From Lachnospiraceae bacterium (GTDB taxonomy: Bacteria > Bacillota > Clostridia > Lachnospirales > Lachnospiraceae): a DNA stretch of 64,000 nt. A program made the position numbers and the translations under genes. The notes beneath the pieces were generated by a model that saw nothing but the letters and a program-made list of their open reading frames with translations, was not told the origin of the DNA and searched no databases. Of this stretch, positions 42,817 to 58,918 are shown piece by piece (within the stretch, counting starts at the first letter, position 1; each line of letters opens with the position of its first letter). Where the stretch lies: NCBI GenBank assembly GCA_021770755.1, contig JAETQI010000012.1, forward strand, positions 1 through 64,000, in the 5' to 3' direction.

Positions 42817-43596
42817 ATGGATAAAATTCCAAAGAAAATACATTTTTGCTGGTTGGGTGGTGAAGATTATCCAGAACTGATTCAGAAATGTATCAATTCA
42901 TGGAAAGAAAAATTGCCAGATTATGAAATAAAGTGTTGGAATACAGAGAATTTTGATGTGAATATCTGTCAGTATACGAGAGAGGCGTTTCAGGTAAAAA
43001 AATATGCTTTTGTGAGTGATTATATCAGACTCTATGCGTTATACCATGAAGGGGGAATCTATCTGGATACCGATATAGAGGTGCTAAAAAAATTTGATGA
43101 TTTATTGGAAAATAAAGCGTTTACAGGGTATGAAAAAAATAATTCTGCAGTGGCGACATGGTTGTTTGGAAGCGTAAAAGAAAATCCGATATTTAAAGAG
43201 TTTTTAGCATATTATGATGACCGACCGTTTATTCTGCAAGATGATACATATGATCTGACACCGAATCCCATTCCAATAACGGAGATCTGCGTGAAACATG
43301 GACTGGAGTTAAATGGAAATAGACAGCAGCTCGACTATATTACCATATATCCAAAGGATTACTTCTGTCCATATAACCGGGCAACGGAAGAGTTAAACAT
43401 CACAGAGAATACATATACTATTCATTATTTTAATGGTTCATGGATATCTGAGGAAAAAAGGAAAATCATCGCGAAAAGAAAACAGGTCGTAAAGAAGTAT
43501 GGTAAGCTGGCAGGATATATTTATTATGGATTCGGTGTGATTAAAAGTGATGGAGTGATGCAGTTTATAAAAGAATTGAAGCATGCTTTTCAATAG
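42817..43596 (+). CDS. Family 32 glycosyltransferase (capsular polysaccharide synthesis)
   Basis: A 259-residue protein starting MDKIPKKIHFCWLGG, typical of GT32 and DXD-sugar-binding transferases. The metal-binding motif is in GGIYLDTDIEVLK. No membrane helix. A ribosome-binding site TTGGAGG precedes the ATG. It probably adds one sugar to the repeat unit on the cytoplasmic side. Confidence 0.9.
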   Translation: MDKIPKKIHFCWLGGEDYPELIQKCINSWKEKLPDYEIKCWNTENFDVNICQYTREAFQVKKYAFVSDYIRLYALYHEGGIYLDTDIEVLKKFDDLLENKAFTGYEKNNSAVATWLFGSVKENPIFKEFLAYYDDRPFILQDDTYDLTPNPIPITEICVKHGLELNGNRQQLDYITIYPKDYFCPYNRATEELNITENTYTIHYFNGSWISEEKRKIIAKRKQVVKKYGKLAGYIYYGFGVIKSDGVMQFIKELKHAFQ

Positions 43597-43622
43597 AAAA
43601 AGAAATGAGAGATAATATTACT

Positions 43623-44681
43623 ATGAAGATTATTTTCGTTACAAAACATAAGATATATTTAGATGTTTTAAAGGGAGGAGAAATTGCTAGCAAAGCAAAT
43701 TATGATGCGTTAGCAGAGATTTGTGGAGAACAAAATATAGAACTTCTGGAAATAAAGGAAAAAGGAAATTTGTTTGGTAAATATATTCAATATTTATTTA
43801 AAAGAGATGGATATGATAAAGCTGAGGAACGCAGGTTAAGTCAGTATATTAATGATAAATCAGCAGATATTGTTTTTTTTGATGGAAGTTGGTTTGGCGG
43901 GTTGATATATAAACTTAATGTAAATAGTAAAAAGATCGTATTCTTGCATAATGTGGAAAAAAAATATTCACTTGATCGCATGAAACGAAATATGTTGACT
44001 GCAATAAAATATAGGTCAGTAGCCTTTAATGAAAAACAAATTATATCAAAAGCTGATTATGTATTTGTATTGAATCAACGTGATAATCAGTTGATTAAAA
44101 AATATTATCAAAGAGAATGTGATTTATTTCTGCCAATTGCCTTGAAAGATACGTATTGTGCTAAGACACAGGAAATAGAAATTTATGGAAAAAAGAGTTT
44201 ATTGTTTGTGGGATCTTATTTTCAACCCAATGTAAATGGAATTATCTGGTTTATACAGGAGGTGTTGCCTAAAGTTGATTGTAGACTTGTAATTATTGGA
44301 AAAAATATGGAAAAAATAAAATATTTGGAAAATGAGAATATTATTGTGGCGGGAACAGTGAAAAATACAGCAGAGTATTATAATTGTGCTGACGCGGTGG
44401 TTATGCCTATTTTTTCTGGTGGCGGAATGAAAGTTAAGACAGCAGAGGCAATGATGTATGGAAAAAAGATATTAGGGACACAGGAGGCATTAACGGGATA
44501 CTGTGACGAAAAGGTTGAGGGTATACGTGAATGTAATACTGTTGAAGAATTTGTAGACGCAATAAAAAACTTGGACGATCAAAAGTATAAACAAAATATA
44601 AGGCGTTACTTTTTAGATAGTTTTTCATATGAAATTAATAAGAAACGATTAGGAGATTTTTTTCATGAGTGTATATCATGA
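43623..44681 (+). CDS. Glycosyltransferase (GT4/GT-B type)
   Basis: A 352-residue GT-B enzyme. The C-terminal domain has LLFVGSYFQPNVNGIIWFI and the acceptor-side motif VVMPIFSGGGMKVKTAEAMMYGKKILGT, a GT4 hallmark. An upstream ATG at 43605 would add six residues. The gene is very AT-rich and overlaps the next by 17 bases. Confidence 0.85.
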   Translation: MKIIFVTKHKIYLDVLKGGEIASKANYDALAEICGEQNIELLEIKEKGNLFGKYIQYLFKRDGYDKAEERRLSQYINDKSADIVFFDGSWFGGLIYKLNVNSKKIVFLHNVEKKYSLDRMKRNMLTAIKYRSVAFNEKQIISKADYVFVLNQRDNQLIKKYYQRECDLFLPIALKDTYCAKTQEIEIYGKKSLLFVGSYFQPNVNGIIWFIQEVLPKVDCRLVIIGKNMEKIKYLENENIIVAGTVKNTAEYYNCADAVVMPIFSGGGMKVKTAEAMMYGKKILGTQEALTGYCDEKVEGIRECNTVEEFVDAIKNLDDQKYKQNIRRYFLDSFSYEINKKRLGDFFHECIS

Positions 44682-45648
44682 TGTTAAGGATAAAATTTTA
44701 ACAATATCAATCGCAGCATATAATGTTGAGCAGTATATTTCTAAGGCAATTGAAACTTGTATATTAAAGTCGGAAAATAAAAATTGTATAGAAGTTATAG
44801 TTGTTAATGATGGTTCAAATGATAGAACTAGCCAGATTGCGCATTCGTATGAGGTAAAATATCCTCAAATTGTTACGGTTATAGACAAAGAAAATGGTGG
44901 ATACGGTTCAACAATAAATTGTTCGTTAAGATATGCTCACGGAAAATATTTCAGATTGTTGGATGGAGATGACTGGTTTGCCACTGATACATTGGATGTA
45001 TTAGTTTCTGAGCTGAAACAATGCGAAGAGGACATTGTCTTTACAGATTCTCTTTGTGATTATGGAAAAAAGAAAAAGATTACAAAGATTGAATTACCGA
45101 TAGGAAAAACTATTAAAATAGATGATATCAGTGAAAAAACAAATTTTCAAATGCAAAACATGACATATAAAACAAGTATTCTCAAAAATAGTAATATTGT
45201 TATATCAGAAAAATGTTTTTACACTGATATGGAATTTGTAATAATGCCATTACCTTATGTGAAAAATATTCGATATCTGGATAAGGTTTTATATGTGTAC
45301 AGATTGAATGTTCCCACGCAAAGTGTCAGTATCAATGGAATAAAGAAGCATTATAAAGATTCTCAAAAGGTACTTTATAAGCTGTTGGCTAATGTTGGTC
45401 TGTCAAAGTCACCATTATATCAATATCAAATAGCTTTATTTGCGAAAAAGGTAATAGGAAATTATTTGATTGCTGATGATTATAAGAATGTGAAAGAAGA
45501 TATTAGAAAAATAGATATTGATATATTAAAAACAGACAGGTTAGTTTATCGGTTTATGAAAAATAAAACAATATGGTGCCTGCGTAAGAGTGATTATAAA
45601 TTATCGTATATAGTAAAATTAATATATGTGTTGGTAAATAGACGATGA
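44665..45648 (+). CDS. Family 2 glycosyltransferase
   Basis: A 327-residue GT-A enzyme with ISIAAYNVEQYI, VIVVNDGSNDRT and the metal-binding LLDGDDWF near residue 98. AGGAG precedes the ATG at 44665, which lies within the previous gene's end. It overlaps the following membrane protein by four bases. No C-terminal membrane helices, so it is soluble or peripheral. Confidence 0.9.
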   Translation: MSVYHDVKDKILTISIAAYNVEQYISKAIETCILKSENKNCIEVIVVNDGSNDRTSQIAHSYEVKYPQIVTVIDKENGGYGSTINCSLRYAHGKYFRLLDGDDWFATDTLDVLVSELKQCEEDIVFTDSLCDYGKKKKITKIELPIGKTIKIDDISEKTNFQMQNMTYKTSILKNSNIVISEKCFYTDMEFVIMPLPYVKNIRYLDKVLYVYRLNVPTQSVSINGIKKHYKDSQKVLYKLLANVGLSKSPLYQYQIALFAKKVIGNYLIADDYKNVKEDIRKIDIDILKTDRLVYRFMKNKTIWCLRKSDYKLSYIVKLIYVLVNRR

Positions 45649-47360
45649 AAATTGAGGGAAATGTTGTCAAAAAGAAACGTATTTGGGTATTTTGCTTAAT
45701 GCTGATTATCATACATTCATATGGATTTACAAAACGATATATTCCATGGTTTACAGATGAAATAGGATATTGGGCATCAGCCGCTCTGATGAAAGGATAT
45801 AATTGGAGAGAGGTAATGAGCACGGGAGGATACTATGGTTATGGCTATGGGATAATACTGTCTTTGATAATTAATATTTCAAATATTCATATAAGGTTTC
45901 ATTGTGCTCAACTTATTAATATAGCTTTAGTAGTTATTACATATTTTTTGCTGGTTCGTATTATTTGTAGAATATTTGAAACAAGTACAGAAAGTACAGA
46001 AGGTATTTGTTTTGTATGTATGTGTTATCCGTACATTCAAGTATATACACATCTATCAATGGCAGAAATAGCATTGACTTGCATTTATGTCATATCAGTT
46101 TATGCTTTATTACGATTTAGTGAGAAGAGAACAATTAAATGGAGTATAGTAATAGGAATATGTGTGTTTGCAATGTTTAGCATTCATTTAAGATCTCTGG
46201 TAACATTGTTCAGTTTATTAATAATATTATTAATATCGTTAATAGCTGAAAAAAATAAAAAGAATAAAATTAATATTTTGGTAGGAATTTTAATTTCAAT
46301 TATTGCATTGGTAGTGGTTTGGAAGATAAAAGATTATGTAGTTGAGAACTTATATACAGTGACGACAAGTGGAAATCAAGAGTTGGAACCAAATAAAGGA
46401 AATAGTAGTTTTTCAGCGTATATTTGGATGTTATCTAATATTTTTAAGTTTGATTTTTGGAAGTTAATTATTAAATCTTTGGAGGGAAAATTTTTTTATT
46501 CATTGGTAGCATCGTTTACTTTAACGTTTATTGGTTCAATATGGATCTTAAAGTGTTTATTAAATAGTAGTACGATTCGAAAACCAGTTTTGTTATATAT
46601 CTTTTTTAGTTATTGGGGAGAAGTTATATTAACGATTATTACCATGTTTAATGTCGGACGTTTTGATAATTTGATGTATGGGAGGTATTCTGAGGCGTTT
46701 ATATTGCCCATATTATGCATAGGAATATATTTGCTGTGTAATGGCGTATATAGAATGAAAAATTGTATAATTTATATAATGTTAATGCTACTTCTTAGCA
46801 TAGATTTGTTTCAGTTTATTCAAATGAATGAATTTAAACCTTCTTTGGATATGGCAATTTGTTCTGTATCAGGTTGGAATATCACAAATATATCAGATAT
46901 AGAAATATTTTATGTTTTAGGAGTGGTTTTAATTGTCACTGTTGTAACAATCTTGCTTTGTGTTTTGGGAAAGCAAACACGAAAAGGAACAATGCTTTTT
47001 TTGGTATTTGTATGGCTTTTTGTGGGACAAAACTGTTTAAAGCAGAATGTTTATAATGGATATTGGACGGCTGATAGGTTAGAAGAAACAACTATAGCAA
47101 TTGAAGACCAAAATAAAAAAATGTATTATTTACTGCCTGAGGAAACAAATGACATGGGTAGTGCAGCATGGAGGGACATGTTGTTTTTGCAGTATATGCT
47201 TGTCGATAAAATTATCAATGTAATTGATGAAAGTGAAATAAATAGAGTGGGGGATGATGAAATGCTGATAATCGAAAAGAATATATCAGGATATGAACAA
47301 TATGTCGACCAGAATAAGATATTTTATGAAAATGAATTATTTGTGATAATGATGAAGTAG
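45645..47360 (+). CDS. GT-C-type membrane glycosyltransferase-like protein (paralogue)
   Basis: A 571-residue protein with about 12 membrane helices. Its first external loop, FTDEIGYWASAALMKGYNWREVMSTGGYYGYGYG, split as motifs DEIGYW and YGYGYG, matches that of the GT-C-like protein at 34860. The C-terminal external domain ends in NELFVIMMK, again like its paralogue. The DE is the probable catalytic acid position. It is more AT-rich than the 34860 copy, so the two have different histories. Confidence 0.65.
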   Translation: MKIEGNVVKKKRIWVFCLMLIIIHSYGFTKRYIPWFTDEIGYWASAALMKGYNWREVMSTGGYYGYGYGIILSLIINISNIHIRFHCAQLINIALVVITYFLLVRIICRIFETSTESTEGICFVCMCYPYIQVYTHLSMAEIALTCIYVISVYALLRFSEKRTIKWSIVIGICVFAMFSIHLRSLVTLFSLLIILLISLIAEKNKKNKINILVGILISIIALVVVWKIKDYVVENLYTVTTSGNQELEPNKGNSSFSAYIWMLSNIFKFDFWKLIIKSLEGKFFYSLVASFTLTFIGSIWILKCLLNSSTIRKPVLLYIFFSYWGEVILTIITMFNVGRFDNLMYGRYSEAFILPILCIGIYLLCNGVYRMKNCIIYIMLMLLLSIDLFQFIQMNEFKPSLDMAICSVSGWNITNISDIEIFYVLGVVLIVTVVTILLCVLGKQTRKGTMLFLVFVWLFVGQNCLKQNVYNGYWTADRLEETTIAIEDQNKKMYYLLPEETNDMGSAAWRDMLFLQYMLVDKIINVIDESEINRVGDDEMLIIEKNISGYEQYVDQNKIFYENELFVIMMK

Positions 47361-47409
47361 GTAGAAATAGTAAAAATAGTATATTTATTATAGTAGGTGA
47401 AGTACGGAT

Positions 47410-48672
47410 ATGAGCATATATTATACGAAATATTTAATTTTGGGAGCAGGGTGTTCGGGGCTTGCATTTGCAAATCATTTGGACAAGTCGGAATATATTA
47501 TTATGGAAAAAGATGATACGGGGGGGGGCTATTGCAGGACGTTCAAAAAGGATAATTATATTTGGGATTATGCAGGTCATTTTTTTCATTTTGCAACGCC
47601 CTATTGGAAAAATTTTTTTAAATCGAGAATAGATGCGGATGAACTTGTGACAATAAAAAAGTATACAAAAGTATATTATAAAAATCAGCTAATAGATTAT
47701 CCTTTTCAAAAGAATATTCATCAGTTATCGAAGGAGGAACTGATAGATTGTTTATATGATTTGTGTAATAGAGATTTGATATTAAATGAAAAAAACTTTG
47801 AAGAAATGTTATACAAAAGATTTGGGAAAAGTATATCAAATAAATTTTTGATTCCATATAATGAAAAACTTTATGCCTGCAATTTAAAGAATCTGGATGC
47901 AGATGCAATGGGAAGATTTTTTCCCTATGCAGATTTAACGGAAATAATCAATAATATGAAAAAATCAGATAATAATTCATATAATGATTTTTTTATGTAT
48001 CCCAAAAATGGCGCGGAAGTTTTTGTACAGGCATTAATGAAAGACTTGCCGCGCAAACAATTACTTTATAATCAGGAATGTAGAAAAATAGACTTAAAAG
48101 GTCGAGTAGCATATTCTGAAAATTTGGAAGTTCATTATGAAAAATTAGTTAATACCATACCATTAAAATATTTTATTAATTTATTTGATAATAATTATGA
48201 TAGGAAGGATTTGTCATGTAATAAGGTTTTGGTATTAAATATGGGATTTGATAAGAAATCACATTTTAAAGATATTCATTGGATATATTATCCAGATAAG
48301 AATATAAATTTTTATAGAATAGGTTTTTATGATAATATTTTAAATCAACCCTATTTAAGTTTATATGTTGAAATTGGATATAGGGAAGATGAATCAATTA
48401 ATGTGGATAATCAAATTTATTTAACGCTACAAAATTTAAAAAGGGTAGGAGTAATAGATGAGGACTTTCATTTAATGGCGTATAACACTTGTATTATGAA
48501 GCCGGCGTATGTACATATCTCAGAACAATCAAGAAATTTGGTAGATGAGATAAAAAATTTTTTGGCGGAGCAAAATGTTTATACAATAGGAAGATATGGA
48601 GGATGGAAATATTGTTCGATTGAAGATTGTTTGATTGAGGCAAAAGATCTATATGATAGGATGTGTAATTAA
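47410..48672 (+). CDS. FAD-dependent protein, UDP-galactopyranose-mutase/amine-oxidase-like
   Basis: A 420-residue flavoprotein with the Rossmann motif ILGAGCSGLAFA at residues 10-21 and the second FAD motif MEKDDTGGGYCRTF at 32-45. A ring-binding region AGHFFHF and a C-terminal GRYGGWKYCSIEDCL resemble the FAD/UDP-galactopyranose mutase superfamily. The likely role is sugar-nucleotide rearrangement, but related oxidases are possible. Codons 37-40 contain nine G in a row (47520-47528), a candidate slippage tract; loss or gain of one G would truncate the protein near residue 40. Confidence 0.75.
   Translation: MSIYYTKYLILGAGCSGLAFANHLDKSEYIIMEKDDTGGGYCRTFKKDNYIWDYAGHFFHFATPYWKNFFKSRIDADELVTIKKYTKVYYKNQLIDYPFQKNIHQLSKEELIDCLYDLCNRDLILNEKNFEEMLYKRFGKSISNKFLIPYNEKLYACNLKNLDADAMGRFFPYADLTEIINNMKKSDNNSYNDFFMYPKNGAEVFVQALMKDLPRKQLLYNQECRKIDLKGRVAYSENLEVHYEKLVNTIPLKYFINLFDNNYDRKDLSCNKVLVLNMGFDKKSHFKDIHWIYYPDKNINFYRIGFYDNILNQPYLSLYVEIGYREDESINVDNQIYLTLQNLKRVGVIDEDFHLMAYNTCIMKPAYVHISEQSRNLVDEIKNFLAEQNVYTIGRYGGWKYCSIEDCLIEAKDLYDRMCN
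47520..47528. repeat. Poly-G tract (G9) in the flavoprotein gene
   Basis: Nine consecutive G bases give the Gly38-40 codons, all GGG or GGC, in a gene that otherwise prefers A/T-ending codons. The tract is in frame here (gene ON). Confidence 0.85.
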
Positions 48673-48700
48673 GATGCAGATTGTTAATTGGAAGGATGGT

Positions 48701-49762
48701 ATGGATAAATTAGAAAAGTCCGACAGAATTGAAAGTATTGATTTATTAAGGGTGATTTCAATAATGTGCGTTATTGTAATACATTGCGTCGAATATTTGG
48801 ATTGGACAACTTTATCACAGCACAAACGTTTTATTCAAACTTTTGTGGCTATGTTGATTTTTGTCGGAAGGCTTGGTGTTCCTTTTTTTATGATGATATC
48901 GGGGTATTTGATTTTGGATAAAAAATTTGATTCAAATCAATGTAAAATTTTTTTAATGAAGAATTGGCTTCATCTTTTGACTGTTACGCAGTTCTGGTAT
49001 GTAATATATAATATTTATTTGTATTATTTTTGTGAACAACAGATATCAATAAAATATTTGATACAACAAATTTTCTTTGTAAGGAATGTAAATATGAGCC
49101 ATGTTTGGTATATGCCTATGATATTGGGGGCGTATTTAATATTTCCATGGTTGGCAAACGCGCTAGGTTCAATAAGGAAATCCATCATTTTAGTGCCGTT
49201 AACAATTTCTGTTATATATACTTATGTGTTTCCATTTATTAATGGAATTACAAAAGTATTACATGAAGAGCCTATGCAGATACAAATTCAAATTTATTCC
49301 GGGGGGGGGTATATATGGGCTTATTTTGTAATAGGTTATCTGGTTAAAAATTGTCTTTTATCGAATATTAAAAAAGAAAAACTTATAATATTTTCTCTGA
49401 TTATGTTCAGTTTGGCGGTAGTGATTCAAATGTTGGCATTAAACTTAAACTACAAATATAACTTGTGGTATGATTGCCCGATGGTGTTGGTGTGTTCAGT
49501 ATGCTTGTTTGAAATTATCCAAAGAATTGGGCATGTAAAATGGTATAAAGTAATACGCTTTTTATCAGATTATTCGTTTGCAGTTTATTTAATACATAAT
49601 ATGTTTGTGATATGTTTGACACGTTTATTAATGCATAGCAGTATATTAACGGAATTTAAGTTTGTTTTAATCTTTGTGCTAACAGTAATTTTAAGTTATG
49701 GAATAGCATGGGGAATAAATCATATTCCAAAAGTGGGATGCTATATTTTATATATGAGATGA
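48701..49762 (+). CDS. Acyltransferase family 3 membrane protein
   Basis: A 353-residue integral membrane acyltransferase (OafA/WecH-like) with about 10 helices. The signature RIESIDLLRVISIMCVIVIHCVEY places the catalytic His in helix 1. It probably O-acetylates or acylates the glycan. ATG 48701 follows AAGGA; in-frame starts at 48674 and 48635 exist, the latter inside the previous gene. A nine-G tract at 49301-49309 encodes Gly201-203. Confidence 0.85.
   Translation: MDKLEKSDRIESIDLLRVISIMCVIVIHCVEYLDWTTLSQHKRFIQTFVAMLIFVGRLGVPFFMMISGYLILDKKFDSNQCKIFLMKNWLHLLTVTQFWYVIYNIYLYYFCEQQISIKYLIQQIFFVRNVNMSHVWYMPMILGAYLIFPWLANALGSIRKSIILVPLTISVIYTYVFPFINGITKVLHEEPMQIQIQIYSGGGYIWAYFVIGYLVKNCLLSNIKKEKLIIFSLIMFSLAVVIQMLALNLNYKYNLWYDCPMVLVCSVCLFEIIQRIGHVKWYKVIRFLSDYSFAVYLIHNMFVICLTRLLMHSSILTEFKFVLIFVLTVILSYGIAWGINHIPKVGCYILYMR
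49301..49309. repeat. Poly-G tract (G9) in the acyltransferase gene
   Basis: Nine G bases encode three successive GGG glycines between TCC and TAT. The frame is open (ON). A one-base change would truncate the enzyme after about 200 of 353 residues. Confidence 0.85.
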
Positions 49763-49875
49763 AAATGGTAATTATTAATGCATTTTGTGAATAAGAACGT
49801 TTTGAGTGTAGTAAAAACTGGTGATAAGCTATACAGATGCTATTTTAGTGTTTTACAAATTAGGAGTGATTAGGT

Positions 49876-50883
49876 ATGGAAGATATTAAGGTATCAATAT
49901 ATTGTTTAGCTTACAACTGTGCTGATTTCTTTGAAAAATCAATTCAGGGTATGTTGAATCAGAGAGTAAATTTTCGATACAAAATAATTGTACATGATGA
50001 TGCGTCGACAGATGGTACAGATGATTTGATCAGAAAATATGCAGAACAATATCCTGATAAAATTTGTTCCGTTTTGCAGACAGAAAATCAGTATTCAAAA
50101 GGGGTGGATATTTGTAAAGTATATATTGAGCCTAAACTTGAAGGAAAGTATGTGGCGATATGTGAAGGAGATGATTACTGGATTGATGAGAATAAGCTGC
50201 AAGTGCAGTATGATTATATGGAAACACATCCCGAATGTTCTTTGTGTACACATAACACAGAAATACGTGATTTAAATACTGGAAAGAAGAGAAACTTTAA
50301 TAATTGGAAGGATATTCATATATTAACAGAAGAGGAAATATTTTTAAAATGGAGTGTTCATACATCTTCTTACTTTGTAAGAAGAGAAAATGAAAAGTGG
50401 ACAGGCAATTACTATATGTTTGGAGATTACGTAATGTTAACGTGGGCCTTTTATAATGGAGTAGTGGTTTGTTTGCCGCAAATGATGTCAGTATATAATT
50501 TTAATAATCCAAACGGATTAACAAAAATGAATTATGATGCTGGTTTAATGAAAAAACAGAAAATTGAGAGAGATCGAATTTCCTATCTGAATGAATTTAA
50601 CGAGAAAACACAATATAGATATAATAACATAATTGCAAAAAGATGTGAAATTATGGATTACGGATGTTTGGAAAGAGAATGTGATTATATCATTTTACAT
50701 TCCGACTCAAAAGAAGATGTTATTAAAGCAGCAAAGAAATTAACATCGCATGAGTATTATTCCGAATCTCTTCATACAAAAAAAGGTATTAGAAGATTGA
50801 TAAAGAAGTACAGATATGAAGGCTATAGATTTTATCCATTATGGAAAATTGTCATGAAAGTATATTTGACAAATAGGCTGTGA
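49876..50883 (+). CDS. Family 2 glycosyltransferase
   Basis: A 335-residue GT-A enzyme: VSIYCLAYNCADFF, IIVHDDASTDGTDD and the metal-binding ICEGDDYWID near residue 95. TAGGAGTGATTAGGT precedes the ATG. Its stop overlaps a potential GTG start of the flippase gene. Confidence 0.9.
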   Translation: MEDIKVSIYCLAYNCADFFEKSIQGMLNQRVNFRYKIIVHDDASTDGTDDLIRKYAEQYPDKICSVLQTENQYSKGVDICKVYIEPKLEGKYVAICEGDDYWIDENKLQVQYDYMETHPECSLCTHNTEIRDLNTGKKRNFNNWKDIHILTEEEIFLKWSVHTSSYFVRRENEKWTGNYYMFGDYVMLTWAFYNGVVVCLPQMMSVYNFNNPNGLTKMNYDAGLMKKQKIERDRISYLNEFNEKTQYRYNNIIAKRCEIMDYGCLERECDYIILHSDSKEDVIKAAKKLTSHEYYSESLHTKKGIRRLIKKYRYEGYRFYPLWKIVMKVYLTNRL

Positions 50884-50885
50884 AT

Positions 50886-52331
50886 ATGGAAAACAAAAAA
50901 ATTCTTTCTAATTTTATTTGGCGTTTTGCAGAGCGATGTAGTGCGCAAATGGTCACGTTTGTTGTGTCGATTGTCTTAGCACGTCTTTTGGAACCTGATA
51001 CATATGGGACAATTGCATTAATGACAGTATTCATCAGTATTGCACAGATATTTGTTGACTCAGGTTTAGGAAATTCATTGATACAGAAAAAGGATGCCGA
51101 TAACATAGATTTCTCAACAGTTTTTTATGTTAATATATTCTTTTGTTGTGGATTGTATTTGATACTTTATGCGACAGCGCCTGTCATTGCAGCTTTTTAT
51201 CATAATATGGAAATGGTTCCAATGATACGGGTGCTTGGTCTGACGCTTGTTATATCAGGATTAAAAAACGTTCAACAGGCGTATGTTGCCAGAAACATGT
51301 TGTTCAAATGCTTTTTCTTTTCAACGTTGGGAGGGACAGTCTGCGCGGCCATAGTTGGAGTCATAATGGCATATATGGGGTGTGGGGTGTGGGCGCTGAT
51401 CGTTCAAAATGTGATAAATGTGACGATTGATACAGTTATTTTATGGATAACAGTGCGGTGGAGACCACAGGCAGTGTTTTCAATGAAACGTCTGAGAAGA
51501 CTATATTCATTTGGATGGAAGCTTTTGGTTTCTGCAATCCTTGACACAGGATATAACAATTTATGGTCCTTGATTATAGGACGAGTGTATACCCCCGCAG
51601 ATTTGGGACTTTATAATCAGGGAGATAAGTTCCCAAAATTGATTGTAAGCAATGTGAATACCAGTATCGATAGTGTTCTGCTGCCGGCTATGAGCAATGT
51701 GCAGGATGAGCGCGAACATGTAAAGAATATGACGAGAAGGTCAATTATGACAAGTGTATATATTATGGCGCCGCTTATGATCGGAATGATGTCCATGGCA
51801 GAGCCGCTTGTCAGATTTGCGTTAACAGATAAGTGGCTGCCATGTGTTCCATACCTGAGAATCTTTTGTATAACATATATGTTTTGGCCTATTCATACAG
51901 CGAATCTAAATGCGATTAATGCAATGGGGAGAAGTGACCTGTTTCTGAAATTGGAGATCATTAAAAAAGTTGTTGGATTAATGTCTTTGTTAATTACTGT
52001 AAATCGTGGAGTTATGGCGATGGCATATAGTCAATTGATGATTGGTCTGATATGCCAGGTTATCAATGCATGGCCTAATAGGAAATTATTAAATTATAGA
52101 TATATTGACCAGTTAAAAGATATCTTGCCTAGTATTGCTCTGGCGACGATGATGGGGAGTGTAATATATCCAGTATGCTATTTGCATTTGGCAGATAGTT
52201 TGATACTTGTCATTCAGTTAATATTGGGGATCATAGTATATATTGGGTTTTCAATGATATTCAAAAACAATTCGTTCTTTTATATTTGGGGAATCGTCTC
52301 TCGAATGATTGATAAGAAGAAAAGCAGATAA
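50886..52331 (+). CDS. Wzx-type polysaccharide flippase (MOP superfamily)
   Basis: A 481-residue, 12-14-helix transporter that flips lipid-linked repeat units across the membrane. The start NFIWRFAERCSAQMVTFVVS and the region LYNQGDKFPKLIVSNVNTSI are typical of the lipopolysaccharide/teichuronic-acid flippase group. A GTG at 50880 overlaps the previous stop and is an alternative start. It implies a Wzx-dependent pathway with repeat units built inside and polymerised or used outside. Confidence 0.9.
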   Translation: MENKKILSNFIWRFAERCSAQMVTFVVSIVLARLLEPDTYGTIALMTVFISIAQIFVDSGLGNSLIQKKDADNIDFSTVFYVNIFFCCGLYLILYATAPVIAAFYHNMEMVPMIRVLGLTLVISGLKNVQQAYVARNMLFKCFFFSTLGGTVCAAIVGVIMAYMGCGVWALIVQNVINVTIDTVILWITVRWRPQAVFSMKRLRRLYSFGWKLLVSAILDTGYNNLWSLIIGRVYTPADLGLYNQGDKFPKLIVSNVNTSIDSVLLPAMSNVQDEREHVKNMTRRSIMTSVYIMAPLMIGMMSMAEPLVRFALTDKWLPCVPYLRIFCITYMFWPIHTANLNAINAMGRSDLFLKLEIIKKVVGLMSLLITVNRGVMAMAYSQLMIGLICQVINAWPNRKLLNYRYIDQLKDILPSIALATMMGSVIYPVCYLHLADSLILVIQLILGIIVYIGFSMIFKNNSFFYIWGIVSRMIDKKKSR

Positions 52332-52362
52332 ACACAAAATATTCGGGAAGGATTTGTTCAGT

Positions 52363-53928
52363 ATGCAGAAAAAGTTTAAAAGAAGTAAACAAGTATCAGT
52401 AATCATAATGGTAACTTTAGTGGCATTTTGTTTTTGTAATGCAAAGTCAGGATATTTTCTTGATGAAATTTATTCATTCGGACTGTCTAATAGTGAATAT
52501 AAACCGTTTTTAGTAGATGTGATGGATGGAGATATTACAGAGAAAATAATCACTTATAAGGAATTATTTAATTATGTGGCAGCAGGCGATAATAAATTCA
52601 ATTATGATTCGGTGTACTATAATCAGACGCAGGACGTTCATCCGCCACTATACTATGATATTTTGCATACTATCTGTTCTTTGTTTCCCGGTTCTTTTTC
52701 CAAATGGCTGGGATTAATTCCAAATATGATATTTTATGTACTGACACTGGTTTTGCTTTTAGTATTGGCAAACAAGTTGTTTGATAGTGAGATAAATATT
52801 TCGTTGAGTGTAATAATATTATATGGATTAAGTTCAGCAGGTTTGGAAACGTTGTTATTTGTTCGGATGTATATGCTTATGACATTGCTGACAGTACTGC
52901 TGGCAATGATTGTCTTGAAGCTTTTGCGACAAGAAGGGTATTATTTGTATCCGATTATCTCCATAGTTTTATTTATGGGATTAATGACACAATATTATTT
53001 TGTATTCTATGCGTTTTTCTTATGTTCGTTTTATATACGATATCAATGGAAGAGAGAGCAATATAAAAAGGCATTCATTTTCCTGTTGTTTTCTTTATTT
53101 GGCATTGTAAGTATGTATTTAATGTTTCCTAACTGTATTTTACAGATGACAAAAGGAACAGGAGATGGGATAACTGCATGGCAGCACTTGTTGGCATTCA
53201 ATGATTATCCATCAAGGTTTTGGCAATTATTGAAGCAGATGGGACATGCACTCTTTTTGACAGGGGTATTCGGGGGGGGGGTATGCATTGCCTCGATATC
53301 AAATCACAAAAGAATGCTGGGATTGGAAAATAAAAGAATAGAAGTGCAAATAATAATAATGCCAGCATTGTTAGCTAATTTGGTGATTGTGTGCATTTCA
53401 ATGCCAACGATACGCTATATTTATAATCTCTTGCCTTTTTACGTATTATTAGTTGGGTATATGATGTTTGGCTTAAAAAGGGCGATCATTATACATAATA
53501 AATGGATAGGTAAATGTATAATACCAATATTGTTTTGTGTCAGTATGTTGACTGTTCTTCGGTTCAAACCTAATTTTTTATATATGCATCACAGGCAAAA
53601 CAATCAAGTAATAGCACCATATAAAAAATGTGTATACATATCAGACAATGTAAATCCATGTATTACATCGGATTTATGTCAGTTGTTAAATTTTGAGGAA
53701 GTGTTTGTGAGCAATATTTCCAATATATCGAATGGATATATCAATATATGTGATTACATGGATTTTGTTACAGAAGGAATTATTTATATTTCAACATACA
53801 AAAATCCGTATAGTACTGATCAGATTATGGATGTGCTAATGGAGAATTTGCAAGGTTATGAGATGGAAAAATTGTATGAAGGTGAATTTTCCACTACATA
53901 TGTGATAGAAAGGAGTAAGCAGCAGTAG
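52363..53928 (+). CDS. GT39-like (GT-C) membrane glycosyltransferase
   Basis: A 521-residue protein with about 11 membrane helices. The first external loop has YFLDEIYSFGLSNS and later TQDVHPPLYYDIL, the DE and HPPLYY pattern of the PMT/GT39 family using polyprenyl-phosphate sugars. GGGAAGGA precedes ATG 52363. It contains a ten-G tract (53272-53281) at codons 304-307, between helices, so the protein may be switched off by slippage. Confidence 0.78.
   Translation: MQKKFKRSKQVSVIIMVTLVAFCFCNAKSGYFLDEIYSFGLSNSEYKPFLVDVMDGDITEKIITYKELFNYVAAGDNKFNYDSVYYNQTQDVHPPLYYDILHTICSLFPGSFSKWLGLIPNMIFYVLTLVLLLVLANKLFDSEINISLSVIILYGLSSAGLETLLFVRMYMLMTLLTVLLAMIVLKLLRQEGYYLYPIISIVLFMGLMTQYYFVFYAFFLCSFYIRYQWKREQYKKAFIFLLFSLFGIVSMYLMFPNCILQMTKGTGDGITAWQHLLAFNDYPSRFWQLLKQMGHALFLTGVFGGGVCIASISNHKRMLGLENKRIEVQIIIMPALLANLVIVCISMPTIRYIYNLLPFYVLLVGYMMFGLKRAIIIHNKWIGKCIIPILFCVSMLTVLRFKPNFLYMHHRQNNQVIAPYKKCVYISDNVNPCITSDLCQLLNFEEVFVSNISNISNGYINICDYMDFVTEGIIYISTYKNPYSTDQIMDVLMENLQGYEMEKLYEGEFSTTYVIERSKQQ
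53272..53281. repeat. Poly-G tract (G10) in the GT39-like gene
   Basis: Ten G bases encode three GGG glycines and the first base of Val. It is the longest homopolymer G run in the window and lies in one of its most AT-rich genes. The gene is in frame here. Confidence 0.85.
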
Positions 53929-53953
53929 AATAGAGAGGCTGCATGAGCGAAGT

Positions 53954-55165
53954 ATGAAAAAAATATTATTGTTAGGTGGTTCTTATTTTCAGGTTCCGTC
54001 TGTTATTACAGCAAAAAAGTTAGGGTATTATACAATAACTTGTGATTATCTTCCCGACAATCCTGGACATAAGTATGCAGACGAGTATCACAATGTCAGT
54101 ACAACGGATAAAGAGGCGGTATTGCGCCTTGCGCAAGAGTTGAAGGTTGACGGAATAGTATGTTACGCATCAGATCCTGCAGCACCTACAGCCGCTTATG
54201 TTGCAGAACGTATGGGATTTCCGACAAGTCCTTATAAATCAGTAGAAATACTGTCAAATAAAGATAAGTTCAGGGAATTTTTAACAAATAATGGGTTTTG
54301 TGTTCCGAAAGCAAAGGGATATGCTTATGCTGAATTTGATCAGTTACTTCAGGAAGTGGAAATGTTTCGATTTCCTGTAATGGTTAAGCCGGTAGATTCA
54401 TCTGGAAGTAAAGGGGTTAAAAAAGTAGATTTAATTGATGAACTTAAGCAGGCTGTTGATGAAGCAGTCGTGTATTCTAGATGCAAACGCTTTATTGTTG
54501 AGGAGTATGTAGAAAAGTATGGATACCAGATTGCAGGGGACGGTTTTTCCGTAAAGGGGGAACTTCGGTTTAGATGTTTTGCCAATGAACATTTTGATGC
54601 AAGCGGGATTAATCCATACGTTCCTGTAGGAGAAAGTTGGCCATATAATAAGCCGCAAAGAATACATCAGAAGTTACATAATGAAATCCAGCGTGCAATT
54701 TCACTACTTGATATGGAGACACAGGCTTATAATTTTGATGCACGGATTGATAGGGACGAAAACGTTTATTTGATGGAAATTGGCCCGCGCAACGGTGGAA
54801 ACCTGATTGCACAGGTGACGCAATACGCGACAGGCGTGAATATGGTTGAATATACGATCAGGGCTGCCATGGGAGAGGACTGCAGTGACTTACATATGGT
54901 TGAACCGGTAGGATATTGGGCAAATTACATGATACATAGTCAGACATCAGGAATATTGCACAATATCTGGATGGACGAAGATTTTAGGGAGAATAATGTT
55001 GTGGAGTATCAGCCCTTTTTCAGAAAGGGAGACAGGGTAGAAGCCTTTACAGGTTCTAATGGGACGTTAGGGACACTTATTTTGCGATTTTCCAGTGAGT
55101 CTGAAATGCTTGAGAAAATGGACCATATGGAACAATGGATGAGGCCGATTGTCGAGAAGGAATAG
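53954..55165 (+). CDS. ATP-grasp family ligase
   Basis: A 403-residue ATP-grasp enzyme. The N-terminal Rossmann-like part begins MKKILLLGGSYFQ. The ATP-binding part has FPVMVKPVDSSGSKGV and CKRFIVEEYV; the metal site is in YLMEIGPRNGGN near residue 275. Such enzymes join a carboxylate (often an amino acid) to an amine. Next to PLP enzymes and GNATs it may build or attach an amino-acid decoration of the glycan. Substrates are not readable from sequence. Confidence 0.85.
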   Translation: MKKILLLGGSYFQVPSVITAKKLGYYTITCDYLPDNPGHKYADEYHNVSTTDKEAVLRLAQELKVDGIVCYASDPAAPTAAYVAERMGFPTSPYKSVEILSNKDKFREFLTNNGFCVPKAKGYAYAEFDQLLQEVEMFRFPVMVKPVDSSGSKGVKKVDLIDELKQAVDEAVVYSRCKRFIVEEYVEKYGYQIAGDGFSVKGELRFRCFANEHFDASGINPYVPVGESWPYNKPQRIHQKLHNEIQRAISLLDMETQAYNFDARIDRDENVYLMEIGPRNGGNLIAQVTQYATGVNMVEYTIRAAMGEDCSDLHMVEPVGYWANYMIHSQTSGILHNIWMDEDFRENNVVEYQPFFRKGDRVEAFTGSNGTLGTLILRFSSESEMLEKMDHMEQWMRPIVEKE

Positions 55166-55180
55166 GGAGGAATGAAATAT

Positions 55181-56125
55181 ATGACGACGGATAGTATCGG
55201 AGGATACCTTGGATTGGACAGATATTATCTTCCTATGCTGCATGAGGATGCGCTTTCATTGAATTGCGGAAGGAATTGTCTTGCATATCTCATAAGAGCG
55301 AGGAAAATCAAGAAAATTGCACTGCCTCTTTTCTTGTGTGCCTCTGTTAGGGATACATGTCTGAAGGAAGGGGTGGAGATACATTATTATAACATTGATG
55401 AAGGGTTTCATCCGATCGATTTGAAAGTTGACGAGTGGCTGTATCTTGTTAATTATTATGGACAGTTTTCCGCATCTGATATAGAAAAATATTACAATAC
55501 ATATGGAAAAGTTATTGTAGATAATGCCCAGGCCTATTTTGCGACACCGGTGCAGGGGGTGGATACTTTATATACATGTCGCAAATTTTTTGGTGTGACA
55601 GATGGGGCATTTCTTTATACGGATATAAAATTGGATGAAGAGATAAAAAATGATGAATCATACACTAGAATGCTATTTATTTATGGAAGATATGAAAGAC
55701 CGGCATCTGAATTCTATGATATGTATGTTAAAAATAACGAGTTATTTGACACAGAGCCAATAAAGCGGATGTCCAGACTTACAACGAATCTCCTTCATGG
55801 GATTGATTATGAGTTTGTAAAAAGGAAAAGAACTTGTAACTATAACTATTTACATGAATATCTAAACAAAAGAAATAAATTGCAATTGAAACAGGCTGAA
55901 GGTGCGTTTGCGTATCCGCTGCTTGTAGATAATGGTGCAGAGATAAGGAAACAGCTTATCTGCGAAAGAATATATATTCCGACATTGTGGCCTAATGTAT
56001 TAAAAGATGCGGTGCCTGATAGTCTGGAATATCGGTATGCGGAGAATATACTGCCATTGCCCTGTGACCAACGATATGGGGTAAGAGAAATGAAAAGGAT
56101 TTGTGATTTGTTGGAGGAAGTGTGA
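55181..56125 (+). CDS. Small DegT-like PLP-fold protein
   Basis: A 314-residue protein of the DegT/DnrJ/EryC1/StrS aminotransferase fold, shorter than the usual ~370. The cofactor Asp is in VIVDNAQAYFA, and a Lys in the Schiff-base position is Lys135 in TCRKFFGVTDGAFL. The canonical S-x-x-x-K context is replaced. ATG 55181 is ten bases after AGGGAGG; ATG 55172 is too close. It may be a true transaminase or a non-catalytic relative. It sits between the ATP-grasp and GNAT genes. Confidence 0.75.
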   Translation: MTTDSIGGYLGLDRYYLPMLHEDALSLNCGRNCLAYLIRARKIKKIALPLFLCASVRDTCLKEGVEIHYYNIDEGFHPIDLKVDEWLYLVNYYGQFSASDIEKYYNTYGKVIVDNAQAYFATPVQGVDTLYTCRKFFGVTDGAFLYTDIKLDEEIKNDESYTRMLFIYGRYERPASEFYDMYVKNNELFDTEPIKRMSRLTTNLLHGIDYEFVKRKRTCNYNYLHEYLNKRNKLQLKQAEGAFAYPLLVDNGAEIRKQLICERIYIPTLWPNVLKDAVPDSLEYRYAENILPLPCDQRYGVREMKRICDLLEEV

Positions 56126-56132
56126 TTGAAAG

Positions 56133-56723
56133 ATGATGAAATTAAGAGAATTGGAACGAAAAGATATCAGTGAAATTAATACATGGAGAAATCAGCACGA
56201 ATTGATTGACATGCTTGGAGCACCATTTCGATTTATCAATTCAGATGTGGATGTAAAATGGTATGAAGATTATATGGAGAGTCGTGGAAATACTGTCAGA
56301 TGTGCAATCGTTGCAGAAAATGATAAAATCTTGGGATTGATCAGTCTGACGAATATTGACTTTATCAATCGTTCTGCACAGTTGCATATTATGATAGGAC
56401 TAGAAGAAAATCAGAATAAAGGGTTAGGAACGTTTGCATTGTCAGAGATGCTCGCACATGCTTTCTGCAACATGAATCTTGAAAGGGTAGAGCTGGCTGT
56501 TTTAGAGTCGAATAAACGGGCACAGCATTTGTATGAAAAAGCAGGATTTGTCTTGGAGGGAAGAAAAAGGAATGCAATATATAAAAATGGGGAATTTGTG
56601 GATATGATGATGTATTCAATTTTAAAGAACGAAAATAGATGCAAGAACAAATATTCGGGTGGGGGGGGATTAGGGATTTTGTCATTGATATGGTTTACTC
56701 TCAGAGAATTAAATACTACATAA
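56133..56723 (+). CDS. GNAT N-acetyltransferase (PseH/RimJ-like), ending past a G tract
   Basis: A GNAT domain (residues 1-170) with LRELERKDISEINTWRNQ and the acetyl-CoA loop ENQNKGLGTFAL near residue 92, then NKRAQHLYEKAGF. It resembles sugar-amine acetyltransferases such as PseH. The domain is complete at about YSILKNE. The last 20 residues after the eight-G run (56661-56668) look like out-of-frame read-through. With nine G the frame would continue into the next GNAT domain, giving one protein of about 328 residues. Confidence 0.82.
   Translation: MMKLRELERKDISEINTWRNQHELIDMLGAPFRFINSDVDVKWYEDYMESRGNTVRCAIVAENDKILGLISLTNIDFINRSAQLHIMIGLEENQNKGLGTFALSEMLAHAFCNMNLERVELAVLESNKRAQHLYEKAGFVLEGRKRNAIYKNGEFVDMMMYSILKNENRCKNKYSGGGGLGILSLIWFTLRELNTT
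56661..56668. repeat. Poly-G tract (G8) at the GNAT-GNAT junction
   Basis: Eight G bases, preceded by GGGT, lie in the linker between two GNAT domains. G8 puts a stop at 56721-56723. G9 (or G6) aligns frame 56133 with frame 56690. The other three tracts in the locus are in frame at 9, 9 and 10. Confidence 0.85.
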
Positions 56724-57115
56724 TGAATGAATGCGATAGAGCATTTCAGAATTCGATCCTTGAAAGGAATGAATTTGGAGAGTTGTTTCACAAAATAGAT
56801 GTGAATGGAGTATTTATTGTTGCTCATCATGCATATGTGCTTGGATATGCTGTATTATATGCTAATAATTTGTCAGAAAACGAGGGATATCTTACTCTGA
56901 TAGCAGTTTTGCCGGAATATCAGGGAAAACATATTGGTCGGAATCTGATTTTAGCATGCTGTGATATTGCACACAACAAAGGGATGAAGAGGCTTAAACT
57001 CGAAGTGAAAAGAGATAATGGAAAAGCCATACATTTTTATTTGAAAAATGGTTTTTTGTTTGACAGTCATTGCTCAGATAAAAGTGAGTATATGATCAAG
57101 TTACTTGATTCATAA
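56690..57115 (+). CDS. Second GNAT domain protein
   Basis: A GNAT domain of 141 residues from the ATG at 56690, or 158 from 56639 within the previous gene. It has YLTLIAVLPEYQGKHIGRNL, the acetyl-CoA loop near residue 82, and NGKAIHFYLKNGF near 117. No good ribosome-binding site precedes either start, which fits expression as the C-terminal half of a fused protein when the upstream tract has nine G. Substrate unknown. Confidence 0.75.
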   Translation: MVYSQRIKYYIMNECDRAFQNSILERNEFGELFHKIDVNGVFIVAHHAYVLGYAVLYANNLSENEGYLTLIAVLPEYQGKHIGRNLILACCDIAHNKGMKRLKLEVKRDNGKAIHFYLKNGFLFDSHCSDKSEYMIKLLDS

Positions 57116-57235
57116 AAGTATAAACACATCTCCCTGTTAATCAATATTACACTTCAATACTTTCCATAATTATGCATGATTCATAAAATAATTATATTAT
57201 TTATATGTGGTTTTGAAATGAAAGGACGAGAGTGT

Positions 57236-57793
57236 ATGAATATCAAAGGAAAGTATGTTATGTTAAGGGCGATGGAAAAAGTGGATATGGAATTAGTATG
57301 TAGTATGTTCAATGATCCAGAACTTGAAGATGCAGTAGTTGGCTGGTCATTTCCATTATCGTTAGAACAACAGAATAGATGGTTTGAAAATAATATGAGT
57401 GATAATCATAACTTTAGATTTATAATCGAGACCCCTAATGACGGAGCTGTTGGGATAGCTACATTGATTAATATTGATTGGAAAAATCGGCATGCGGGTC
57501 ATGGGATTAAACTTGCAAATAAAGAGAGGCGTTCAAAGGGGATCGGTACGGATTCGGTAATGGCGGTTATGCGATACGCGTTTGATGAATTAGGATTAAA
57601 TCGTTTGAATGGAAGTTGGTTCTCGAATAATCTGGCATCAAAAGGAATGTATATGAAATGTGGATGGAAGGAAGAAGGAATCAGACGAAAATATATATTT
57701 AAAAAGGGAGAATATAGGGACCTGGTTGAAGTTGGTGTTCTTGCATCAGAATACTATGAATTAATTTCAAAAAATCATTACTGGGAATTATGA
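57236..57793 (+). CDS. GNAT family N-acetyltransferase (RimJ/RimL-like)
   Basis: A 185-residue acetyltransferase starting MNIKGKYVMLRAMEKVDMEL. The acetyl-CoA region reads KERRSKGIGTDSVMAVM near residue 98, with NLASKGMYMKCGWKEEG later. AAAGGACGAG lies eight bases before ATG 57236. It is the third GNAT in a row and precedes the aminotransferase by 12 bases, consistent with N-acylation of the amino sugar that enzyme makes. Confidence 0.85.
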   Translation: MNIKGKYVMLRAMEKVDMELVCSMFNDPELEDAVVGWSFPLSLEQQNRWFENNMSDNHNFRFIIETPNDGAVGIATLINIDWKNRHAGHGIKLANKERRSKGIGTDSVMAVMRYAFDELGLNRLNGSWFSNNLASKGMYMKCGWKEEGIRRKYIFKKGEYRDLVEVGVLASEYYELISKNHYWEL

Positions 57794-57805
57794 GGTGATA
57801 AACAT

Positions 57806-58918
57806 ATGAACATATTAGTAACCAGATCATCCATGCCGCCGTTAGATGAGTATATGGATGAGATCAAAGAATTGTGGGAAACACATTGGCTGACGAATAT
57901 GGGAGTAAAGCACAGACAGCTACAGGAGAAGCTGAAAGAATATCTTGGAGTATCCAATATTGATCTGTTGACAAATGGACATATGGCATTAGAATTGACG
58001 TTGCAGGCTTTGAATCTGCGTGGGGAGGTAATTACAACACCGTTTACTTTTGCATCGACAACGCACGCCATTGTGCGAAACGGTTTGATACCTGTTTTTT
58101 GTGATATTAATGCATCTGATTTTACAATAGATGCGGATAAGATAGAGTCACTGATTACGGATAGAACATGCGCGATTGTACCAGTACACGTTTATGGTAA
58201 TATTTGTAATATTGAGGAGATCGAACGGATTGCCCATAAATATGGATTAAAAGTTATCTATGACGCAGCGCACGCTTTTGGTGAGACATATAAAGGAAAA
58301 GGAATTGGAACATTTGGAGATGTATCCTGTTTTAGTTTCCATGCCACTAAAGTTTTTAACACGATTGAAGGTGGGGCTGTCTGCTTTAATGATTCTGATT
58401 TTGGCATGAGAATTTATAGGTTAAAGAATTTTGGTATACGTGGGCCAGAAGTTGTTGACGGAGTGGGTGCAAATGCGAAAATGAACGAATTTTGTGCAGC
58501 AATGGGAATTTGCAATTTAAAACATGTAAATGATGAAATATTAAAAAGGAAATCCATCGCAGAACATTATAGAAGTTGTTTGGAAGGGATTGAAGGCATA
58601 CAGCTAAGTCCACTGCAAGAGAATGTTGAATCAAATTATGCGTATTTCCCAATTATGATAGATGAAAAAATATTTGGTTTTAGTCGTAATGAAGTGTTCG
58701 ATAAATTGGCTGAAAACGGAGTAGGCGCGAGAAAGTATTTTTATCCATTGACAAACACTTTCGAATGTTTTCATGGAAAATATGATGTGACTCTTACACC
58801 TGTAGCAGTACATATTAGCAAACGGATACTCACATTACCACTATATGCGGATTTGAGTGAGGATGATGTGGATTTTATTTGCCGTGTTATTTTGCAATGT
58901 AAAAAAAGAAGGCCGTAA
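57806..58918 (+). CDS. DegT/DnrJ/EryC1/StrS aminotransferase
   Basis: A 370-residue PLP-dependent sugar aminotransferase. The Schiff-base Lys182 is in SFHATKVFNTIEGG and the cofactor Asp in VIYDAAHAFGE. N-terminal SSMPPLDEYMDEIKELWETHWLTNMG is typical. It probably aminates an NDP-keto sugar. No NDP-sugar dehydratase or nucleotidyltransferase is in the window, so the substrate must come from elsewhere. GAGGTG precedes the ATG. Confidence 0.9.
   Translation: MNILVTRSSMPPLDEYMDEIKELWETHWLTNMGVKHRQLQEKLKEYLGVSNIDLLTNGHMALELTLQALNLRGEVITTPFTFASTTHAIVRNGLIPVFCDINASDFTIDADKIESLITDRTCAIVPVHVYGNICNIEEIERIAHKYGLKVIYDAAHAFGETYKGKGIGTFGDVSCFSFHATKVFNTIEGGAVCFNDSDFGMRIYRLKNFGIRGPEVVDGVGANAKMNEFCAAMGICNLKHVNDEILKRKSIAEHYRSCLEGIEGIQLSPLQENVESNYAYFPIMIDEKIFGFSRNEVFDKLAENGVGARKYFYPLTNTFECFHGKYDVTLTPVAVHISKRILTLPLYADLSEDDVDFICRVILQCKKRRP

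Follow-up and report, generated by a model that had tools for sequence, protein, structure and literature searches.

A surface-glycan locus of a Lachnospiraceae bacterium carries four long guanine runs (poly-G tracts), and to judge from their sequence context the G9, G9 and G10 runs, possibly also the G8, are very probably contingency switches driven by slippage. They lie in a stretch of 64,000 nucleotides, hereafter the window (GCA_021770755.1, contig JAETQI010000012.1, positions 1-64,000, forward strand). An earlier reading made from the letters of this DNA (the sequence-only reading) had proposed phase variation for this one locus; the phenomenon is genome- and genus-wide with non-random flanks, beyond what was then claimed. 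The features concerned are as follows.

42817..58918, plus strand: AT-rich glycan locus bearing the tracts (glycosyltransferase 2, polysaccharide flippase, ATP-grasp protein, PMT_2-like protein, GNATs and neighbours)
47410..48672, plus strand: UDP-galactopyranose mutase-like (UGM) flavoenzyme, 420 amino acids, assembled in frame (Pfam NAD_binding_8, Amino_oxidase)
47516..47532, plus strand: ATAC-G9C-TAT in the UGM gene, a copy of the genus-wide bipartite motif, spacing 10
47520..47528, plus strand: G9 tract in the UGM gene, encoding Gly-Gly of the nucleotide-binding motif DDTGGGYCRT
48635..49762, plus strand: membrane O-acyltransferase of the acyltransferase 3 family, 375 amino acids from TTG (start uncertain), assembled in frame (PF01757, E 2.6e-35)
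49301..49309, plus strand: G9 tract, then TAT, in the O-acyltransferase gene (run count)
52309..53928, plus strand: hydrophobic membrane protein, 539 amino acids from TTG (start uncertain), assembled in frame
53272..53281, plus strand: G10 tract, then TAT, in the membrane-protein gene (run count)
56133..56723, plus strand: GNAT acetyltransferase, first open reading frame (ORF), 196 amino acids (PF13302, E 1.7e-16, residues 3-140)
56639..57115, plus strand: GNAT acetyltransferase, second ORF, 158 amino acids (PF00583, E 1.1e-18, residues 50-139)
56661..56668, plus strand: G8 tract in the overlap of the two GNAT ORFs, without ATAC/TAT flank

Just four G or C runs of at least seven bases occur in the 64 kb, and they are the ones that the sequence-only reading had pointed to: G9 at 47520-47528, G9 at 49301-49309, G10 at 53272-53281 and G8 at 56661-56668, all on the plus strand, from which the glycan locus (33% GC) is read. 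Within 45-58 kb a first-order Markov estimate gives 0.10 expected runs of at least eight bases against four observed, and 0.025 of at least nine against three observed (Poisson P about 5e-6), so that a chance origin is very unlikely, as had been argued. Run lengths in the window show a gap, with 35 G/C runs of length five, six of length six and none of length seven before those of 8, 9, 9 and 10. The codon claims fared less evenly. Three tracts had been read as Gly-Gly-Gly in GGG codons, which holds at 49301 (three GGG) and at 53272 (three GGG and the G of GTA) but not at 47520, where ACG GGG GGG GGC gives two GGG and one GGC; the G8 at 56661 reads GGG TGG GGG GGG in the frame of the downstream ORF. 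Glycine codons of the locus outside the tracts were said to be mostly GGA or GGT, and these do lead (148 and 57, with GGC at 16), yet GGG, at 50 of 271, is a minority codon without being rare.

The placement of the tracts is such that a shift in length alters the product of three genes and, at one added G, merges the GNAT pair. By computed translation, one G more or less leaves 48 or 73 of the 420 amino acids of UGM (47-74 for one to two G), 237 or 231 of the 375 of the O-acyltransferase (231-237) and 341 or 343 of the 539 of the membrane protein (340-344). The assembled G8 keeps the 196- and 158-amino-acid GNAT ORFs separate, and one added G would yield a single ORF of 327 amino acids; the frame of the first passes, beyond its domain, through the tract, and the second overlaps it in another frame. 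The G8 tract is the weakest of the four, being shorter than nine and free of the ATAC/TAT flank, and is less certain as a switch than the other three.

The window tract genes are of a surface-modifying kind by their Pfam and PDB matches; the Pfam search of the locus covered the ORFs in 45645-57115, those beyond being translated only. The top PDB match of the UGM protein was UDP-galactopyranose mutase 4dsg (E 5.9e-31), and its tract segment aligned without gaps to NDTPGGLSRS of a solved homologue. The membrane protein at 52309..53928 had no Pfam match at E 0.01; by resemblance it is perhaps a membrane glycosyltransferase.

The mechanism that we propose is that replication slippage adds or removes G in a tract. 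With one or two G gained or lost, UGM, the O-acyltransferase and the membrane protein would be cut short, and one added G would join the GNAT ORFs. Such switching is presumably reversible and of high rate. Several switch genes in one locus, together with fourteen further genomic tracts of at least nine G, could produce combinatorial glycan coats, which may help against phages or immunity.

Adjoining the locus on its outer side, the window also holds a YhgA-like putative transposase (59925-60968; Pfam Transposase_31, a weak match but above cut-off), in whose C-terminal part a Glu-Lys-Arg-Gly repeat corresponds to a 12-base tandem repeat.

Tracts of the source genome and its relatives

The source assembly (4.7 Mb, 122 contigs) holds 17 distinct tracts of at least nine G, three of them in the window. 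At least seven of the 17 fall within ORFs whose match to a family of the glycan-locus kind exceeds the cut-off (by Pfam, and for UGM also by PDB; the Pfam search took in all tract ORFs but one on contig 4), namely UGM and acyltransferase 3 of the window, two more acyltransferase 3 ORFs (contigs 91 and 119), a methyltransferase, a GtrII and a cytidylyltransferase, and others lie in the window membrane protein and in ORFs with weak or no Pfam match. At the tract of the contig-91 acyltransferase two frames meet. The G strand is the coding strand for 18 of the 19 tracts of at least eight G in this genome and for 86 of 93 in relatives. On contig 119 (L019, 2629-3156) a G9 falls at the second glycine motif of a Pyr_redox_2 ORF, out of frame as assembled, in a gene of metabolic type and not a surface gene.

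Same-genus relatives follow the grouping of the tool that was used and include metagenome-assembled genomes (MAGs) filed as uncultured Lachnospiraceae; the tract places in G016, G019 and G028 match those of the MAGs G730, G729 and G731. The pattern GGGGGGGGGTAT occurs 148 times in the source genome and 35 such relatives (21 of the 36 genomes), against six occurrences of the reversed pattern. Tract load varies, from no G9 at all in six of 38 same-genus genomes to 15-29 tracts followed by TAT in five others. The longer form ATACGGGGGGGGGGTAT was found in G035 alone among 250 genomes of the family (249 genera), and G9TAT in 48 of 398 genomes of the phylum, mostly as one copy each.

Inference from assemblies lends strong support to the proposal of poly-G phase variation. 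For tracts of at least eight G with at least 50 open codons on either side, in 40 relatives' regions selected for G9TAT, the reading frame is split at 26 of 66, against 78 of 1040 control runs of four to six G from the same DNA; in a count of 88 relatives' tracts, 37 are split between frames. Two near-identical loci, L041 (G026) and L068 (G016), have 7.0 kb in common at 98.4% identity with three indels, of which two form a compensating pair 2 bases apart and the third is G10 versus G9 in the tract; this sole unbalanced indel shifts the frame of an AMP-ligase. The sequence-only reading had named the replacement of a tract by other glycine codons in relatives as one case against it, and this was seen only in remote UGM homologues (23-29% identity).

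Thirty proteins were hand-picked from about 106 tract ORFs (21 of relatives, nine of Akkermansia or Treponema), and 25 match Pfam at E 0.001. They belong to assorted families, with acyltransferase 3, GtrII, UbiA, epimerase, pyruvyl transferase, sulfatase, AlgX-like, FkbM and other methyltransferases, and also radical SAM, PfkB, AMP-ligase and transglutaminase-like. In several relatives poly-G instead forms the spacer between TTGACA-like and TATAAT-like boxes. A Bacilli MAG carries, at L155 (2467-5777), four tandem paralogues (proteins 46-84% identical) with TTGACA-N10-Gn-TATAAT promoters in which n is 10, 9, 9 and 8. L104, L082 and other CANRBB loci (Bacilli MAGs) have similar promoters; repeated genes with near-identical promoters and spacer poly-G of 8-10 bring to mind arrays of variable surface proteins.

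Lost mismatch repair as a simple cause of hypermutation was ruled out: MutS1 exceeds the cut-off in 34 of 38 same-genus genomes, including tract-rich ones (among the 34 are G000, G016, G019, G026, G028 and G035), and the four below it are 66-88% complete; the test covered mutS1, with mutL outside it. A shorter MutS-like gene (about 560-610 amino acids) with internal stops was observed in four tract-bearing genomes (G016:C31, G019:C7, G028:C15 and G000:C68) and also in tract-free G020 (G020:C184), but not in tract-rich G026 or G035.

Flanking words in the genus and in other lineages

The flanks were read in 40 regions selected for G9TAT (38 of the genus, two of the same-order genome G045), which hold 87 tracts of at least nine G and in which the upstream side is free of selection. 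ATAC ends within two bases upstream of 42 of the 87, against about 2% before short G runs, and among the 18 tracts without TAT next, TA follows 12 and ATAC precedes 13. ATAC followed by up to six bases, G7 and TAT has 76 matches in 20 of 38 same-genus genomes and none in reverse. The ATAC-to-TAT spacing is 10 in 36 matches, 11 in 25, 9 in eight, 12 in five and 13 in two, and the G run shrinks with each intruding base (on average 9.77, 9.23, 8.75 and 8.22 G with zero, one, two and three intruders), which indicates that the spacing is more tightly fixed than the length of the tract (variance 0.746 versus 1.575 shuffled, 0/20000 shuffles; P 0.010 when limited to n of at least 9). Placing the gap on the 3′ side gives 22 matches versus three reversed, and five of the eight distinct interrupted tracts among them retain GTAT. 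The core G content of ATAC-N10/11-TAT sites (52 own and relatives' sequences) resembles the reversed control up to six and then jumps to 8-10, with seven absent. In the source genome, TA follows 12 of 17 tracts (background 6%).

Because the tracts occupy all codon phases and unrelated genes, the flank rule is a signal at the DNA level. In-frame tracts of relatives fall 23, 15 and nine to the three phases, which rules out a cause at the protein level. Paralogy of the tract genes as the source of the flanks was ruled out as well: the 88 tracts of relatives belong to 68 protein clusters, and TAC stands upstream in 46 of these, and acyltransferase 3 members carry the tract at several differing places. 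Hairpin pairing of the flanks was tried and rejected, covariation being no higher than in shuffles (mean stem 2.98 versus 3.05).

A scan of 84,980 species for ATACGGGGGGGGGGTAT returned 89 stretches, against about 30 expected for a random 17-mer by our own estimate, mostly from gut or rumen MAGs of several phyla, many with the isolate prefix Lapin, which we take as rabbit; in promoter-type matches the TAT is attributable to the -10 box. Thirty genomes selected for holding the motif were compared for G9TAT versus its reverse. The counts are 6, 8, 4, 9 and 2 versus 0 in rabbit Akkermansia, 33 and 18 versus 0 in two Bacilli, and 4, 6, 14 and 4 versus 0, 1, 1 and 0 in four Treponema; there is no preference in Campylobacter jejuni (6 versus 7) or another Campylobacter (2 versus 2). 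Among tracts unselected by flank, TA follows 19 of 23 in Treponema, 9 of 16 in Akkermansia, 6 of 7 in Blautia caecimuris and 5 of 6 in Streptobacillus, and TAC lies within three bases upstream in 13, 4, 1 and 2 of these, respectively; the tracts read were 31 of 39 match places in Akkermansia G703, every one in Blautia and a portion of the listed ones in Treponema and Streptobacillus.

In two Campylobacter genomes TA follows 7 of 35 tracts and TAC precedes three, versus TA after 50 of 68 in the others pooled (Fisher P 2.5e-7), a contrast that rests mostly on the uncultured Campylobacter G712. There TA follows 1 of 22 tracts, C[AT]TT follows 20 of 28 and AAAC precedes 11, over 22 protein clusters and all codon phases, so that at least one lineage bears quite different flanks and a single flank rule for all poly-G users is unsupported. 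C. jejuni G711 is intermediate and not a clean negative for TA, which follows 6 of 13 tracts (one picked by motif), with TAC before three and TAT directly before five.

In Blautia caecimuris DSM 29492 (L176-L182) and Streptobacillus notomytis (L199-L200), poly-G stands at several sites between TTGAC(A) and TATAAT/TAAAAT, which suggests transcriptional phase variation in cultured strains. The ATAC-G10-TAT of these two was dropped as support for the upstream rule, since the -10 box explains most of it and ATAC occurs in 1 of 7 and 1 of 6 unselected tracts. Viral contigs hold ATACNG9TAT in 12 stretches (about eight distinct) versus none reversed, and ATACG10TAT once versus none. In L216 (8605-9804; IMGVR_UViG_3300032038_000088), a viral contig of 58% GC, G9, G10, G8 and G11 occur within 1.2 kb, each followed by TA, in or beside ORFs matching phage DNA methyltransferase families and an HNH endonuclease; this is possibly a phase-variable phage methyltransferase.

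Competing explanations

Several observations weigh against reading the tracts as switches. In the assembly the three long window tracts all keep their frame. In the source genome, two tracts lie in small ORFs without Pfam match, outside recognisable surface genes, one in a pyridine nucleotide-disulphide oxidoreductase ORF and one at a place without an ORF of 60 codons, and the upstream side of the flank rule is weak (ATAC within two bases in 3 of 17 tracts). UGM, the one window gene used for the homologue search in relatives, has homologues at E 1e-20 in two of 37 other same-genus genomes, 23-29% identical and neither with a tract; a search of the named genomes with the window UGM protein gave no match. 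Artefact-like runs were seen in G035 and are suspected from the counts in G005, G006, G014 and G017, whose G9 counts may be inflated by them, and individual tracts may be assembly errors. The tracts could be ordinary coding sequence of fixed length, in which glycine-rich motifs use GGG; the conserved Gly-Gly motif under the UGM tract, the intact state of three window genes as assembled and the 50 GGG among 271 locus glycine codons would suit this. We hold it to be highly improbable, as the distribution of run lengths has a gap and then a second mode at 9-10, the tracts occupy all three phases with 37 of 88 frame-split in relatives, and near-identical relatives differ by one G. At L051 (about 7918-7970, minus strand; contig 49 of G035), G20 and G33 adjoin Ns and look like a poly-G assembly artefact. 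Such runs, and the division of the source genome into 122 contigs, would agree with dark-cycle poly-G from two-colour Illumina chemistry having been built into the contigs, to which we give next to no credence as a general account: the same gene continues on either side of the tracts, conserved residues are encoded, tracts recur at the same site in different species and share specific flanks within coding sequence, and they are also found in the assembly of the cultured strain Blautia caecimuris DSM 29492.

Slippage-driven switching is thus retained for the tracts, and we take the ATAC-to-TAT spacing of 10 or 11 to be a real constraint on where tracts form, persist or slip. For its cause, the physics of slippage is a plausible account, though short of probable: AT-rich or self-complementary ATAC...GTAT would melt or fold easily and raise mutability, with selection gene by gene and no dedicated factor. 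The flanks are indeed complementary and about one helical turn apart, tracts sit at different places within one protein family and so are of separate origin, and in C. jejuni, a classic case of poly-G use, TA follows 6 of 13 tracts and TAT directly precedes five. However, there is no two-sided covariation beyond the fixed words, and the poorly complementary pair AAAC...C[AT]TT of G712 would not be expected from universal physics; that another lineage follows a different rule speaks against physics as the sole cause and keeps a dedicated factor or a copying process in play. Copying of a short ATAC-G10-TAT cassette into new genes, the flanks being heritage and not function, appears rather unlikely. 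It would account for the near-constant unit of 17-18 bp, the absence of core intermediates of seven G, the other words of another lineage and the tract of one AMP-ligase, which lies within an apparent insert relative to a solved homologue. On the other hand, the UGM tract replaced residues without gaps, so simple cassette insertion is not general, and the epimerase tract shows single-residue gaps only, so that at both the bases were altered in place; one further comparison with solved homologues gave no structural match, and among the loci compared no tract-free sister genes were close enough for DNA comparison. More speculatively, and with a low probability in our view, a sequence-specific factor encoded by the lineages with poly-G switches, either a templated writer or a dimeric protein that binds DNA, modifies it or modulates its repair, might recognise a bipartite site straddling the tract and create, maintain or tune it, which would make poly-G phase variation directed and factor-dependent and not passive slippage. 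Its site would be ATAC-N10/11-(G)TAT in these Lachnospiraceae and AAAC...C[AT]TT in the uncultured Campylobacter.

Known systems and significance

Poly-G phase variation has been described mainly in Gram-negative mucosal pathogens. C. jejuni has poly-G/poly-C contingency loci in capsule, lipooligosaccharide and flagellar-glycan genes, and Neisseria has promoter-spacer tracts of porA type. Here the tracts would form a programme that extends over much of a gut Lachnospiraceae genus and acts to a good extent on surface-glycan genes, targets that are likely visible to phages and antibodies, and within its host a single strain would comprise a mix of glycan types. The mechanism is already known; our literature search, over the listed titles and abstract openings with subscription papers mostly outside it, found no account of poly-G phase variation in Lachnospiraceae or of conserved tract flanks, so that the host, the scale and the flank rule were not found in print. 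The non-random and apparently lineage-specific flanks raise a testable question, whether hypermutation at contingency tracts is passive or aimed by a sequence-specific factor.

Among known systems, the promoter-spacer tracts of Neisseria have counterparts in some relatives and other gut bacteria, with poly-G between TTGACA-like and TATAAT-like boxes, whereas the window tracts lie in coding sequence. Bifidobacterium breve switches sortase pili through a G-tract by replication slippage (excerpts of PMC9187656); it is likewise a gut commensal varying a surface structure, but in pilus clusters and not in a glycan locus, and the excerpts hold no flank rule. Poly-G tracts of Campylobacter phages (Sorensen et al. 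2021, as cited in excerpts of PMC11868660) find a parallel in our viral contigs with ATACNG9TAT, one of which has four tracts in a DNA methyltransferase region. There is also a resemblance to the contingency loci of C. jejuni (cf. PMC8437040 and PMC4965091): in both, several poly-G tracts per locus lie within surface-glycan ORFs of an AT-rich genome, with switching by frame shift that is here probable, and one C. jejuni assembly likewise shows TA after 6 of 13 tracts. The Lachnospiraceae differ in belonging to another phylum, in having mutS1 in tract-rich genomes and in their directional TAT, a preference that the C. jejuni assembly (6 versus 7 reversed) does not share.

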